This document shows positions 837 to 6,093 of a stretch of 64,000 bases of DNA, piece after piece. The DNA is taken from assembly GCF_008728835.1 (NCBI RefSeq), contig NZ_CP042582.1:4018217-4082216 (forward strand). The letters are read 5' to 3'. Position numbers and translations under genes: made by a program. Origin of the DNA: Hypericibacter adhaerens (GTDB taxonomy: Bacteria; Pseudomonadota; Alphaproteobacteria; Dongiales; Dongiaceae). Numbering within the stretch: position 1 is the first letter of the stretch; every line of letters begins with the position of its first letter. The notes below the pieces were generated by a model, which worked only from the letters and a program-made list of their open reading frames with translations, was not told where the DNA came from and made no database searches.

Positions 837-2115
837 GGCCGCGGCGGCGCTCGCCGCCGCCGCGGCCGTTCTCGGCATCGGCTGGATGGGGGTCCGGGCC
901 GGCCTGTCCGCGGAGGTCGCTGGCCCCGGTGCCCTGGTGGCGCTCGCGGGCATCGGCTTCCTGGGCCTCGGCGGCCGGACGATCTCGGCGGGCGGCGGCG
1001 CCGTCGCGCGCGGGCTTCAGGTCTGCAAGGCCGTGGCCGACGGCAATTTCGAGGCCCGGGTCACGGATATCCGCGAGGCCGGCGAGATGGGCGAACTGCT
1101 CTGGGCGATCAACGAGCTGATCGACCGGGCCGACGCCTATCTGCGCGAATCCGCGGCCTCGATGGATCACGTCGCCCGCAACGTCTATTACCGGCGCATC
1201 GCCGAGACCGGGATGGTCGGCAGCTTCCTGGCGAGCAGCCAGCGCATCAACAAGGCCACCGACGCGATGGCCACGAAGGTCGCGGAATCCCGCCGGGTCG
1301 CCGACAAGATCAGGGACGTCGTCGGGACGGTCTCGGCCGCGGCGACCCAGCTCGAGACGACCGCGCGCTCGATGCAGGGGGCCGCCGACAGCACCTGCAA
1401 GCGCGCCGACGCCGTGGCCGCCGGCGCCGATCAGGCGGCCGCCAGCGTCGGCACCGTCGCTTCGGCGGCCGAGGAACTGACCGGCTCGATCCAGGAGATC
1501 GGCCAGCAGGTGGCGCGCTCCAACCAGATCACGCTGACCGCCGTCCGCGAGACCGAGGAGACCAACGCGCGGGTGGAGAGCCTCGCCACGGCCGCGCAGA
1601 AGATCGGCGAGGTGGTGGTGCTCATCACCGAGATCGCGAGCCAGACCAACCTGCTGGCGCTGAACGCGACGATCGAGGCGGCGCGGGCCGGCGATGCCGG
1701 CAAGGGCTTCGCCGTCGTGGCGCAGGAGGTGAAGCAGCTCGCCAGCCAGACGGCGCACGCGACCGAGGACATCACCGCCCAGGTGGCCTCGATCCGCAGC
1801 GCCACCGACGCCGCGGTCGCCGGTGTCAACGGCATCGGCAAGACGGTGCGCGAGGTGAACGAGATCGCCTCGGCCATCGCCGCCGCGATCGAGGAGCAGA
1901 GTGCGGCCACCCGGGAGATCGCGTCCAGCGTGTCGCAGGCCTCGGCCGGCACCACCGACGTGACCCGCAACGTCCAGGAGGTCACCGCGGTCGCCAGCGA
2001 GACCGGCACCGCGGCGACCCAGGTCCTGAGCGCCGCCTCGGCGCTCTCGAAGCAGGCGGAATCCCTCAACAGCGTGATGCGGGCCTTCCTGGAGGCGATG
2101 AACCGCGCGGCATGA
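811..2115 (+). CDS. Methyl-accepting chemotaxis protein, CetA-like, no periplasmic domain
   Basis: The protein has 434 residues. Two closely spaced hydrophobic helices (about 7-29 and 36-55) form a membrane hairpin with no periplasmic sensor. A HAMP-like region (about 60-115) and a cytoplasmic MCP coiled coil follow. The hairpin tip at about 274-303 ([20 protein letters not shown], then [15 protein letters not shown]) is the highly conserved CheA/CheW-binding segment. The C terminus has no CheR/CheB-tethering NWETF-like pentapeptide. It overlaps the PAS gene by 26 bp and has its own AAGGAG site inside that gene, so the pair is probably translationally coupled. The likely role is an energy-taxis transducer taking its input from the PAS partner. 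Confidence 0.88.
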
Positions 2116-2235
2116 CGGGCTCTGGCGGCCGGCCGGTCCCATTGGATAGTGTAAGCCGGACGGCCGCCCCTGCGGGATCACGATGCCCCGCGGGATCGGC
2201 GGCCGGAATTCGACCGATCGCCAGGAACCCCGCCC

Positions 2236-2898
2236 ATGCATTTTGCCCCGAACTCGGAATCGCACGGCCTCAAGTTCAACCCCTTCAAGAGCTGCACGGT
2301 GCCGCGGCCGATCGGCTGGCTTTCCAGCGTCAGCCGGACGGGGGTCGCCAACCTGGCGCCTTACAGCCAGTGGCAGAACCTGACCTTCGATCCGCCGATG
2401 GTGATGTTCGCCGCCAACCAGTATCCGGACGGGCGGCGCAAGGACACGGTGATCAATGCCGAGGAGACCGGCTGGTTCGCCTGGAACATGGCGACCTATG
2501 CGCTGCGCGAGGCGGTCAATGCCAGCGCCCGGGCGGTCGCGGCCGAGATCGACGAGTTCGATCTCGCGGGCGTGACCAAAATTTCATGCATCGACGCGCC
2601 CTGCCCGCGCGTGGCGGAATCGCCGATCCATTTCGAGTGCCGCTATCTCAGCACCCAGCGCTTCGCCGGCAACAGCCCGGAGGGGACAGTCGACGTGGTG
2701 TTCGCGCGGGTGGAGCGCATCCATATCCGCGACGAGGTGATCGGCGCCGACGGCAAGATCGACATCAAGCGCATCCGCCCGATCGCGCGGCTGGGCTATT
2801 ACGACTACACCGTCGTCGACGAGGTGTTCGAGATGCGGATTCCGGCGGCCAATGAACTGGAGCTGGCCGGGCTCGAGGGGATGCCGCGGAAGGTATGA
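2236..2898 (+). CDS. Flavin reductase family protein (FMN-binding split barrel)
   Basis: This 220-residue protein has the flavin reductase-like split-barrel pattern: PRPIGWLSSVSRTGVANLAPYS near the N terminus, then FDPPMVMFAANQ and KDTVINAEETGWFAWNMAT. Family members use NAD(P)H to reduce FMN for partner monooxygenases or act as flavoproteins. No monooxygenase partner is adjacent, so the partner is unknown. The ATG at 2236 gives a full-length domain and was preferred over a longer overlapping frame with no domain match. The next gene is convergent, only 21 bp after the stop. Confidence 0.85.
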   Translation: MHFAPNSESHGLKFNPFKSCTVPRPIGWLSSVSRTGVANLAPYSQWQNLTFDPPMVMFAANQYPDGRRKDTVINAEETGWFAWNMATYALREAVNASARAVAAEIDEFDLAGVTKISCIDAPCPRVAESPIHFECRYLSTQRFAGNSPEGTVDVVFARVERIHIRDEVIGADGKIDIKRIRPIARLGYYDYTVVDEVFEMRIPAANELELAGLEGMPRKV

Positions 2899-2919
2899 GG
2901 GCCAGGCACGGTCCGTGTC

Positions 2920-3258
2920 CTAACGAGCGTCAGGCAGGCCCAGGATCCGCCCCACCCGCTCTTCCAGCAGGGCAATCAGCTCGGGCTGCATGAAACGGTA
3001 CTCGTCGGGAATGCCCAGCACGACCACGCGCTTCGACCGCAGAAGCGCGCCGAAATCCCGGGTGAGCTTCTCCTTGTGGCCCGGTTCCATGACCAGGATG
3101 AGATCGGCCCATTCGATCGCCTCGGCCGAGACCGGTGTCTCGGCATCCTTGCCGACCCCGGCCGACTGCGTCTCGATCCCCTCATAGCGGGCGAAGACGG
3201 CCTCGGCGGTCGGGCTGCGCCAGCGATTGCGGCCGCAGACGAAGAGCAGCCGCGTCAC
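2920..3258 (-). CDS. Low-molecular-weight protein tyrosine phosphatase-like protein
   Basis: This 112-residue protein begins VTRLLFVCGRNRWRSPTAE. The sequence C8-GRNRW-R14-S15 is a LMW-PTP phosphate-binding loop (C-X5-R-S), placed as usual right after the first beta strand. The length is shorter than the usual 140-160 residues and the classical C-terminal DP acid loop is not obvious (a PDEYRFM segment is present), so activity is uncertain. The start codon is GTG, with a GGAG site just upstream. That ribosome site lies within a 19-bp sequence identical to the 3' end of the TetR gene 1.1 kb away. The gene was probably once directly joined to AKR-TetR in one operon (see findings). Confidence 0.75.
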   Translation of the reverse strand: MTRLLFVCGRNRWRSPTAEAVFARYEGIETQSAGVGKDAETPVSAEAIEWADLILVMEPGHKEKLTRDFGALLRSKRVVVLGIPDEYRFMQPELIALLEERVGRILGLPDAR

Positions 3259-3273
3259 AGGGCTCCGGCCTTG
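3255..3273. repeat. 19-bp direct repeat, copy 1, at the edge of an AT-rich insertion
   Basis: The sequence tcacagggctccggccttg occurs here and again, identically and in the same orientation, at 4416-4434. This copy carries the GTG start and GGAG ribosome site of the phosphatase gene. The other copy is the 3' end and stop codon of the TetR gene. Confidence 0.9.
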
Positions 3274-4415
3274 GCCGTGCGCTTTCCGAGAACCCCACTT
3301 CAGCGCACTAATTTGCCTAATACATCATTTACGGGTATCTTAAAGAAAATGTTCTTCTCCCTTTTGGGTGCCGCCATGGCAATCGAGAAATTGCTATTCG
3401 TGGACACAAACATCTGGCTCGATTTCTATCGTGCAAGATCCGATGCCGGTCTGGCGCTACTGAAGCATCTTGAGGCAATCGCTGATCGGATAATCGTCAC
3501 TCATCAGCTTGAGATGGAGTTTAAGAAGAATCGGCAGCGAGCTATTGTAGATGGAATGCAGGAACTTAAGCCGCCGGTTAATATTTCTCGCCCAGGTATT
3601 TTTTCAGACGCTCAAGCGGTCAAATCCTTAAGCAAGAGCCTGAAAACCGCTGAGGCTAATGTCAAAAAACTCAAACAGAAGCTAGGAAAAGCGCTGAAAG
3701 ATCCCGCAGCGTACGATCCGGTCTATCAAGCATGTCAAAGGATATTCCACCGCCAGAGCGACCTAGTGCTGACGAGGGAAAATCCGATACGTCGTTCAAT
3801 TCGTACCCTTGCTCTACGGCGCTTCCTTCATGGCTGCCCACCACGAAAGAAGGACGACACCTCAATGGGCGACGCTATAAACTGGGAGTGGATGATTCAT
3901 TGCGCAATCGAGCGAACTGCGGAACTCGTGATTGTAACTCGGGATTCCGATTACGGCTTAGTAATAGACAATACGCCGTATATAAACGATCACCTGCGTC
4001 AAGAATTTGGCGACAGGGTAAGTCAGAAGCGGAAGATATTACTTTACACGAAACTATCGGATGCTCTTAAGCATTTTAAGGTCGAAGTAACGCCAGCTGA
4101 GAAAATTGAAGAAGAGAAACTATTGAGCAAGGCGGCGAGCCCCGAAGGCGCTAAAACCGAGGAGGTGTTAGATGCATTAATAGGCCTGCTCAAAGCTCCT
4201 GCGAAAAGCATGGATGAAGCGAAGGCTGATAATGCTAATTCTGCTTCGGAAGGACTATTAGAACTACTTCGGGGCCTATGGCCCTCCCAAAATGAACCTC
4301 CTGCGACCCACGATGAAAAAGGCCCAGAGCCGTCTAGCTAGACTGAAGCGTTCATCCATTGGGGGGCGGAACAACATTGCGCTGCAGGCAGTTGTTTGCG
4401 GAGTTTGTGCGAGTA
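3274..4415. mobile_element. AT-richer insertion of about 1.14 kb carrying a PIN nuclease gene
   Basis: The segment between the two 19-bp direct repeats is visibly richer in A and T (near 50% GC) than its surroundings. It holds one complete gene on the strand opposite its flanks. No integrase, transposase or terminal inverted repeat was found. The repeats are seen directly; acquisition by transfer is inference from composition, repeats and the broken operon logic. Confidence 0.6.
3376..4341 (+). CDS. PIN-domain protein (DUF4935-like putative RNase)
   Basis: The protein has 321 residues. The N terminus LLFVDTNIWLDF is the first PIN strand, with acidic D10. Further conserved acids lie at D166 and E171 (GDAINWEW) and at D190/D192 (VTRDSDYG), giving the metal-binding set expected of a PIN ribonuclease. 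A charged helical insert (about 75-120) and a low-complexity C-terminal tail (about 240-321) surround the domain. No antitoxin-sized partner is adjacent, so it is unlikely to be a classical VapC. ATG 3376 is used because it starts at the first PIN strand; ATG 3349 is possible. Base composition and codon use differ clearly from the neighbours. Function could be defence or RNA turnover; this is unproven. Confidence 0.72.
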   Translation: MAIEKLLFVDTNIWLDFYRARSDAGLALLKHLEAIADRIIVTHQLEMEFKKNRQRAIVDGMQELKPPVNISRPGIFSDAQAVKSLSKSLKTAEANVKKLKQKLGKALKDPAAYDPVYQACQRIFHRQSDLVLTRENPIRRSIRTLALRRFLHGCPPRKKDDTSMGDAINWEWMIHCAIERTAELVIVTRDSDYGLVIDNTPYINDHLRQEFGDRVSQKRKILLYTKLSDALKHFKVEVTPAEKIEEEKLLSKAASPEGAKTEEVLDALIGLLKAPAKSMDEAKADNANSASEGLLELLRGLWPSQNEPPATHDEKGPEPSS

Positions 4416-4434
4416 TCACAGGGCTCCGGCCTTG
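4416..4434. repeat. 19-bp direct repeat, copy 2, at the TetR gene 3' end
   Basis: This is identical to 3255-3273. Read on the minus strand it encodes the last TetR residues and its TGA stop. A GTG lies one base out of phase with that stop, in the same GTGA context that begins the phosphatase gene at the other copy. Confidence 0.9.
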
Positions 4435-5012
4435 AGCCCCGCGATCACCAGCTTCATCACGGCCTTGATGTCGGCCTCGACCTCCGTGCCGGCGGCGGCG
4501 CGGACCATGTGCGGGTGGTGGAAGCGGATCGTGGCGCTGAGCACGGCGCGCGCGGCCTCGGCCGGATCCTTGACCTTGAACTCGCCCTCGCGGATGCCGT
4601 CGGCGATGATCGCCGCGACCTGGCGCAGCAGCGTGGCCAGATGCCCGGCGACCACCTCGCGCGCCGCTTCCGCGACCGCGTGATAGGCCGCGAACAGCTC
4701 GGGATCCTCCAGCACCTTGCGGCGCTTGGCCTCGGCCAGCGCCTGGACCCAGCCCTCGAGCCGCCGCGCGGCCGGGCCTTTCCGGGTCACGAAGGCTTCG
4801 AGGGGATCCGAGACTTTCGAGAGCCAGCGCTCGGCCACCGCATCCTGCAGCGCGGCCTTGCTGTCGAAATGGCGATAGACATTGGCGTGGCTCATGCCGA
4901 GCGCGCGGGCCACGTCGCTGACCGTGGTCTTGGCCGGCCCATGCCGGCGCAGCTGCGCCTCCGCCGCATCGAGGATGCGCTCGCGCATGGGACGGGCGTC
5001 GTCCGCAGACAT
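4416..5012 (-). CDS. TetR-family transcriptional repressor
   Basis: The protein has 198 residues. Residues about 10-55 hold a TetR helix-turn-helix (RERILDAAEAQL, then TVSDVARALGMSHANVYRHF). The C-terminal half is an all-helical ligand and dimer domain. ATG 5012 is chosen because it starts just before the HTH; the longer frame upstream is Pro/Arg-rich and crosses a hairpin. The gene lies 88 bp downstream of an aldo/keto reductase on the same strand. A 28-bp perfect palindrome, the likely operator, sits in front of that reductase (6124-6151), so it probably autoregulates the two-gene unit. The final 19 bp are duplicated at 3255-3273. Confidence 0.85.
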   Translation of the reverse strand: MSADDARPMRERILDAAEAQLRRHGPAKTTVSDVARALGMSHANVYRHFDSKAALQDAVAERWLSKVSDPLEAFVTRKGPAARRLEGWVQALAEAKRRKVLEDPELFAAYHAVAEAAREVVAGHLATLLRQVAAIIADGIREGEFKVKDPAEAARAVLSATIRFHHPHMVRAAAGTEVEADIKAVMKLVIAGLKAGAL

Positions 5013-5045
5013 CGCCGTTCTGGACAAGCGTCCCCTCACCCCGAC

Positions 5046-5072
5046 CCTCTCCCCCACGTGGCGGGGGAGAGG
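5046..5072. repeat. GC-rich hairpin between the AKR and TetR genes
   Basis: CCTCTCCCCC pairs perfectly with GGGGGAGAGG across a 7-nt loop, preceded by a C-rich run. No T-tract follows on either strand, so it looks more like a dispersed intergenic palindrome than a terminator. It lies inside the presumed AKR-TetR transcript. Confidence 0.6.
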
Positions 5073-5100
5073 ATAGCAATATTCGGGAGGGAACGCCGCC

Positions 5101-6093
5101 TCATCCGGCGCTCTTGCGCTCGCTGTCGAGCGACTGCATGCCATGAGCCGGATAGCGGTCGCCGGCCACCGCACCCTTGGGCATCGCCGCCTCGATCTGG
5201 GCGAGGTCGGCCGGGTCGAGCCGGATCTCGAGCGCCTTCAGCGATTCCTCGAGCTGCGTGCGCTTGCGGGCGCCGATCAGCGGGATGATGTCGCTGCCCT
5301 GATGCAGCACCCAGGCGATCGCGAGCTGCGCCGGCGTGATGCGCAGGCGCTGCGCCACCTTGGCCAGGGCGTCGACCAGCGCCTGGTTGCGGACGAGGTT
5401 CTCGCCCTGGAAACGAGGGCTCATGGCCCGGAAATCCTTGGCCCCCGTCGGCTTGCTGCCGGAGAGGAGACCGCGCGACAGCACGCCATAGGCCGTCACG
5501 CTGATGCCGAGCTCGCGCAGCGTGGGCAGGATTTCCGCCTCGATGCCGCGCGAGGCCAGCGAATATTCGATCTGCAGCCCCGCGATCGGATGGGTGGCAT
5601 GGGCCTTGCGGATGGTGGCGGCCCCCACCTCCGAAAGGCCGATATGGCGCACATAGCCGGCCTTCACCATCTCGGCGATGGCGCCCACCGTCTCCTCGAT
5701 CGGCACGACCGGATCGAGACGCGCGGGCATATAGAGATCGATATGGTCGGTGCCGAGCCGCTTCAGGCTGTAGGCGAGCCAGGTCTTGACCGCGTTCGGC
5801 CGTGCGTCATAGCCGATGAAGCTGTTGTCGGGCGCGCGCTGGGCGCCGAACTTCACCTGGATGAAGAACTTGTCGCGCTTTCCCTTGATCGCTTCCGCCA
5901 CCAGCATCTCGTTATGGCCCATGCCGTAGAAATCGCCGGTATCCAGCAGCGTGATGCCCGCCTCGGCGGCGGCGTGGATGGTGGCGAGGCTCTCGGCCCG
6001 GTCGGCGGGCCCGTAGAAATCCGACATGCCCATGCAGCCGAGACCGACCATGGAAACCGCGGGGCCGCTGCGGCCCAGGAGACGCGTGCGCAT
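5101..6093 (-). CDS. Aldo/keto reductase
   Basis: This 330-residue NADPH-dependent aldo/keto reductase is a single TIM barrel. Catalytic D51, Y56 (LLDTGDFYG) and K81 (VKFG) are present. The usual catalytic histidine position reads LYMPARLDP, with Ala in place of His, a variant I recall from some bacterial AKR branches. The nucleotide-binding end is recognisable in PLIGARKRTQLEE. It probably reduces aldehydes or quinones; the substrate is unknown. The gene is first of the AKR-TetR pair, and the operator palindrome centred about 45 bp upstream of its start suggests induction by a TetR ligand. Confidence 0.87.
   Translation of the reverse strand: MRTRLLGRSGPAVSMVGLGCMGMSDFYGPADRAESLATIHAAAEAGITLLDTGDFYGMGHNEMLVAEAIKGKRDKFFIQVKFGAQRAPDNSFIGYDARPNAVKTWLAYSLKRLGTDHIDLYMPARLDPVVPIEETVGAIAEMVKAGYVRHIGLSEVGAATIRKAHATHPIAGLQIEYSLASRGIEAEILPTLRELGISVTAYGVLSRGLLSGSKPTGAKDFRAMSPRFQGENLVRNQALVDALAKVAQRLRITPAQLAIAWVLHQGSDIIPLIGARKRTQLEESLKALEIRLDPADLAQIEAAMPKGAVAGDRYPAHGMQSLDSERKSAG

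Follow-up and report, generated by a model that had tools for sequence, protein, structure and literature searches.

Insertion with long target duplication has been described for restriction-modification genes of Helicobacter pylori and others (Nobusato et al., 2000), a system represented here by the papers that cite it. A similar anatomy is reported at restriction-modification genes in the available text of several such papers (PMC3031569, PMC1643837, PMC4978471, PMC3154945, PMC11708052), one of which relays the original authors' suggestion that the restriction enzymes attack the target. Direct repeats also flank 10–18% of the small variable segments in the genomes treated in PMC2884548, E. 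coli included, and the available part of that study explains such variability for the most part by slippage deletion across repeats that are mostly <30 bp, and regards end joining as almost absent in prokaryotes. The entry of single genes into bacterial chromosomes without a mobility enzyme has so far mostly been inferred.

The locus described here, in a 64,000-nucleotide stretch of the Hypericibacter adhaerens chromosome (the window), belongs to this already known kind of event, being a repeat-flanked insertion with a PIN nuclease gene as its cargo. It resembles insertion with long target duplication, as portrayed by the citing papers, in that a foreign gene missing in a relative has its target duplicated at both edges and in that three sibling events carry duplications of 164–301 bp; it differs from the system so portrayed in having a lone PIN nuclease instead of a restriction-modification pair and a duplication of only 19 bp. 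With the variable segments of PMC2884548 it shares a present/absent segment bracketed by a short direct repeat, but whereas the available text of that study reads such segments largely as deletions, composition and identical repeat copies favor a recent insertion here. The locus combines a base-exact insertion and its empty allele with end-joining genes in the genus and siblings of other duplication lengths, making it a concrete system for considering end joining as a gene-acquisition route and a modest prospect as a test bed for transposase-free capture.

A PIN nuclease gene bracketed by a 19-bp direct repeat

The features of the locus, in window positions, were as follows.

2920–3258, minus strand: short low-molecular-weight protein-tyrosine-phosphatase-like ORF (P0003, PF01451), starting in the left repeat copy, intact
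3255–3273: left copy of the 19-bp repeat, with the GTG start and the GGAG ribosome-site-like motif of the phosphatase gene
3274–4415: inserted DNA, 1,142 bp, 49% GC, single copy in the genome, missing at the G001 site
3376–4341, plus strand: PIN_12 (PF16289) nuclease gene, 321 aa, identified by profile match and conserved acidic residues
4416–4434: right copy of the 19-bp repeat, with the TetR stop codon and the final TetR codons
4416–5012, minus strand: TetR-family regulator gene (P0002), ending inside the right repeat copy, intact

The first-pass annotation of the window had proposed an exact repeat at 3255–3273 and 4416–4434, one copy at the TetR stop and the other at the phosphatase GTG start and ribosome site. 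Direct sequence match confirmed both copies as identical, and their placement relative to the two genes could be read directly from the sequence. Identity stopped abruptly on both sides, the bases just outside the two copies being different. No third copy was found in the window with up to three mismatches allowed, and two matches to the 19-mer occurred in 0 of 100 shuffles. A search of the whole 5.87-Mb genome returned the flanking pair as the only exact copies, plus one place with three mismatches. Among 20,000 random position pairs with a spacing of 300–5,000 bp, drawn from 1.26 Mb of the same genome, only two had an exact direct repeat of at least 19 bp near both ends.

The DNA between the copies had a GC content of 0.49 compared to 0.69 in the flanks, and the PIN ORF lay on the plus strand between two minus-strand genes, so that the earlier description of an AT-richer insert in the opposite orientation also held. 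The encoded protein covered the whole PIN_12 profile (E 3.1e-24, 86.7 bits versus a gathering score of 32) and also matched PIN_8; profile searches gave no PADLOC or NCBIfam match and one PHROG match of unknown function, and a protein search of viral contigs gave no match. Residues D10, E48, D166, D190, and D192 were invariant in a five-sequence alignment of the protein with four relatives. Invariant acidic residues are expected of a working PIN nuclease from the fold, and the protein is probably an active nuclease, as predicted from its sequence. The full profile match and conserved acidic residues are thus shared with the PIN_12 (PF16289)/DUF4935 nucleases, whereas the C-terminal ~70 residues were weakly conserved among the relatives in the same alignment.

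The distribution of the family was patchy, with relatives of 40–45% identity in unrelated hosts and with members, the window's own genome included, in 3 of 385 genomes of the class (E ≤1e-10) and 4 of 398 genomes at phylum level (E ≤1e-8). A literature search found no functional study of PIN_12/DUF4935 nucleases, and a defense or toxin-like role for the protein is a guess.

An empty site in the same genus

The only same-genus genome listed, G001, served as the single relative for determining the direction of the event. In G001, tetR ran directly into the phosphatase gene through a GTGA overlap, and the flanks of the window, when joined at the repeat, aligned to G001 over 317 bp at 87% identity with 0 gaps. 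The first-pass annotation had predicted precisely this junction, with removal of the insert rejoining TetR and phosphatase through a 4-bp GTGA overlap, and had suggested alignment to a relative lacking the PIN gene; the joined junction was found in G001. Together, the empty G001 site and the gapless alignment bear out its proposal that an element with the PIN gene inserted and a 19-bp target was duplicated. TetR-type matches were widespread (40 of 61 genomes at E ≤0.001, own genome and paralogues included), with a close match of 81% in G001. The tetR-phosphatase pair was present in only two genomes among the loci fetched, and the phosphatase ORF otherwise had only a partial match in these loci, in L013 (43 residues, 42%).

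The target sequence of G001 differed at 6 of the 19 bases and the flanks of the two species were 13% diverged, yet the two repeat copies in the window were identical. Under a simple model, an insert as old as the species split would have retained identity over 19 bp with a chance of ~0.07, and the insertion was therefore placed in the lineage of the window. The sequence comparison thus supports insertion accompanied by duplication of a 19-bp target, with the direction inferred from one relative.

Two further differences from G001 were observed near the start of the window. The first comprised positions 1–1432, part of a 2.2-kb block of normal GC that reaches into the window start and is clean on the G001 side. 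The second covered positions ~2115–2948, also of normal GC, with a flavin-reductase-like ORF at 2236–2898 that was named by eye.

Retention of both overlapping genes

In the empty arrangement, the stop/start overlap reads TCAC on the plus strand and the phosphatase ribosome site falls within tetR. Judged from this gene order, an insertion at the overlap would sever one of the two genes if nothing were duplicated. In the window, the tetR stop is restored on one side and the phosphatase ribosome site and GTG start on the other, where the GTG is the complement of 3256–3258 and is preceded by GGAG. Both genes remain whole because the duplicated 19 bp gives each of them its own copy of the stop or of the ribosome site and start. 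Selection may have favored this outcome with both genes intact, and, to judge from the arrangement, even a tightly overlapping gene pair may tolerate an insertion when the target is duplicated at the junction.

Other insertions in the genus

Insertions were surveyed by comparison over roughly one fifth of each genome, 1.262 Mb of G000 (the genome of the window) and 1.2 Mb of G001, with 616 kb aligned in chain. A net insertion was counted where one genome exceeded the other by ≥300 bp, with a gap of ≤30 kb. Edge direct repeats were present at 4 of 102 net insertions, with lengths of 19, 164, 236, and 301 bp, and the same four were the repeat-bearing cases among the 22 clean insertions (≤60 bp in the other genome).

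PIN insert: 19-bp edge repeat, 100% identity
G000:C1:4164092-4167695 (L058, ~2092-5695): ~3.4 kb insertion with a 236-bp imperfect duplication, 83.5%
G001:C1:3863540-3867064 (L127): 164-bp duplicated gene end, 93%, with a Lon protease gene behind an M24 peptidase gene
G001:C1:3873048-3875122 (L128): 301-bp duplication, 97%, AT-rich, with small ORFs lacking a family match

The insertion with the 236-bp duplication adjoined a terminase-like gene (Terminase_6N). Its cargo consisted of one gene with a WYL domain, one with a ThiF domain, and two small ORFs that matched no family; the ThiF-domain gene had E1-E2 matches in PADLOC, down to 1.6e-11, along part of its length. In the Lon case, one repeat copy was nearer to G000 than the other (89% versus 85%). 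The 301-bp duplication was located at the 3' end of a long ORF and its left flank was disturbed; to its left, a second low-GC stretch was missing in G000. Since three insertions of the genus besides the PIN case carry edge duplications of 164–301 bp, duplication at insertion sites is not an isolated occurrence.

Edge repeats were enriched in low-GC inserts, occurring at 3 of 8 below a GC of 0.58 versus 1 of 94 above (Fisher p 0.0013 with the PIN case and 0.012 without it), for a cut that was picked after inspection and with one of the three low-GC cases just under it. A first version of the census, covering 862 and 800 kb and limited to exact repeats no farther than 60 bp from any of 179 edges, had returned one repeat of at least 14 bp, the 19-bp PIN case; a second version over the same stretches gave five hits among 88 insertions. 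One hit of this second version, an 18-bp repeat at G000 3955337, was dropped as it lay ~270–500 bp from the insertion edges.

Origin of the insertion

The explanation tentatively put forward, with a confidence somewhat short of even, is that foreign PIN DNA was captured at a staggered chromosomal break, filled in, and joined by Ku/LigD with duplication of 19 bp. According to this model, ~1.14 kb of AT-rich foreign DNA with one PIN gene would have entered the stop/start overlap of tetR and the phosphatase gene at a break whose ends were staggered by 19 bases, fill-in of the overhangs would have produced the 19-bp target duplication, and the ends would have been sealed by Ku/LigD end joining, a step proposed from gene content alone. 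Both G000 and G001 encode Ku and a LigD-type ligase. The frequency of edge repeats in the census (4 of 102) showed no excess over the 10–18% given in the available text of PMC2884548; as repeat-flanked segments occur in E. coli according to that text and are no rarer there, the anatomy does not need Ku. For a simple staggered break, the duplications of 164–301 bp (83–97% identity) would be long, and they may have arisen in some other way. By analogy with the suggestion relayed for restriction enzymes in one of the citing papers, the PIN nuclease could attack its own target. A wider generalization, to which we attach little probability, is that this genus, possessing Ku and LigD, acquires foreign genes at gene junctions without a transposase, duplicating 19 to ~300 bp while overlapping genes survive, and that the PIN nuclease may even cut its own staggered site.

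An unlikely alternative is homology-assisted illegitimate recombination, whereby incoming linear or circular DNA with the gene beside a target-homologous stretch would have recombined by homology at one end and been joined illegitimately at the other, slightly upstream, producing a duplicated stretch with one copy derived from the donor. Such recombination has been reported in competent bacteria and during E. coli conjugation in the available parts of PMC3240628 and PMC2884548, and for repeat-flanked moved genes of Arabidopsis the accessible text of PMC2869330 prefers integration of a circle by homology as simpler than target duplication. That process and the present locus have in common that foreign DNA enters through a short junction and that no dedicated recombinase is involved. 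The copies of the longer cases differ by 3–17%, as a donor-derived copy could, and the unequal distance of the Lon copies to G000 points the same way, although this asymmetry is explained equally well by relaxed selection on the truncated copy. At the PIN locus, however, the 19-bp copies are identical despite the divergence of the species' flanks, the identity ends abruptly on both sides, and no donor-derived homologous flank is visible beyond the 19 bp. Homology-facilitated illegitimate recombination could nevertheless be the source of the longer, imperfect duplications.

The direction of the event could also be reversed, with the insert and its repeats being ancestral and G001 having lost the insert through a deletion that ran from one 19-bp copy to the other. 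The available text of PMC2884548 gives such deletions between short direct repeats as a cause of repeat-flanked variable segments, and the restriction of the gene pair to two genomes among the loci fetched is compatible with this account. Against it stand the low chance of 19-bp identity calculated above and the foreign composition and repeat of the insert, which in any case require an insertion at some earlier time. Although G001 could have lost the insert precisely at a later stage, insertion is the likelier reading, and the ancestral scenario is on the whole rather improbable.

Target duplication by break capture was also set against the interpretation offered in the first-pass annotation, a cassette moved by an outside integrase, with the 19 bp as the att core of a recombinase acting in trans. 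An exact repeat at a gene end, the gene remaining intact, and the lack of a recombinase inside the insert agree with this interpretation. The last point had been anticipated correctly: neither a recombinase nor a transposase was found, the PIN gene being the one long ORF, with two shorter overlapping ORFs outside the family scan. The genome search did not return an exact copy of the 19-bp site with other cargo, which the annotation had proposed searching for, and no att-like site was seen to recur or to lie in a conserved gene end, as would be typical of an integrase-mobilized cassette or island. A pre-existing identical att site is unlikely because the target is poorly conserved, differing at 6 of 19 bases in G001. 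Furthermore, no tRNA was found in the window, and relatives of the insert DNA were limited to part of the ORF: the only match in the plasmid collection was to a Pseudoalteromonas record and covered 126 bp of the PIN ORF, the phage collection yielded no relatives, and among the matches listed for 60 relatives nothing fell below E 0.03 outside the own locus. The integrase part of the first-pass interpretation is accordingly not supported, and integration by a recombinase in trans is an improbable reading.

The insert is without sign of a transposon or an integron. Terminal inverted repeats were not above chance in the 40-bp or the 100-bp insert ends (the score was reached by 64 and 333 of 500 shuffles, respectively), hairpins at the insert ends were no better than in shuffles (z -0.14 and -0.82), and no further copies of the insert were found in the genome. 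Gapped similarity beside the repeats had a somewhat high score on either side (reached by 23 and 28 of 500 shuffles) but was given no weight, since it extended over a short stretch, needed gaps, and was out of register. Long duplications are produced by some IS families, but a non-autonomous transposon with decayed terminal inverted repeats, whose transposase made the 19-bp duplication, is very improbable here, as it is unlike an IS, transposon, or MITE in being a single copy with no transposase seen and terminal inverted repeats within the range of shuffles, and identical duplications suggest a recent event with little time for decay.

PIN loci in other genera

Direct repeats were also considered at PIN loci of other genera. 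Imperfect matches in two copies, of 13–30 nt at 73–94%, were seen in L032, L034, and L035, none of them exact and some bracketing the gene (for instance, 20 nt at 85% in L034), and were rejected as chance-like. Searches for Ku gave no match in G169 and G324, which both have PIN relatives, or in two further genomes from the genus of G324. Over this handful of genomes, the Ku pattern and the chance-like repeats at the other PIN loci would fit break capture with end joining.

At L035, L153, and L154, in the genus of G324, G239, and G136, three unrelated small genes occupied the place after a purA-like gene, itself named by eye. The gene at this place differed by species, being the PIN nuclease, a GIY-YIG-like ORF, or an unknown ORF, the latter two named by eye. 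No long repeat was seen at the place in these three genomes, and it looks like a case of replacement, not duplication. The GIY-YIG-like ORF was bordered by palindromic CCCTCTGGCTTGACCAGAGGG-type repeats.
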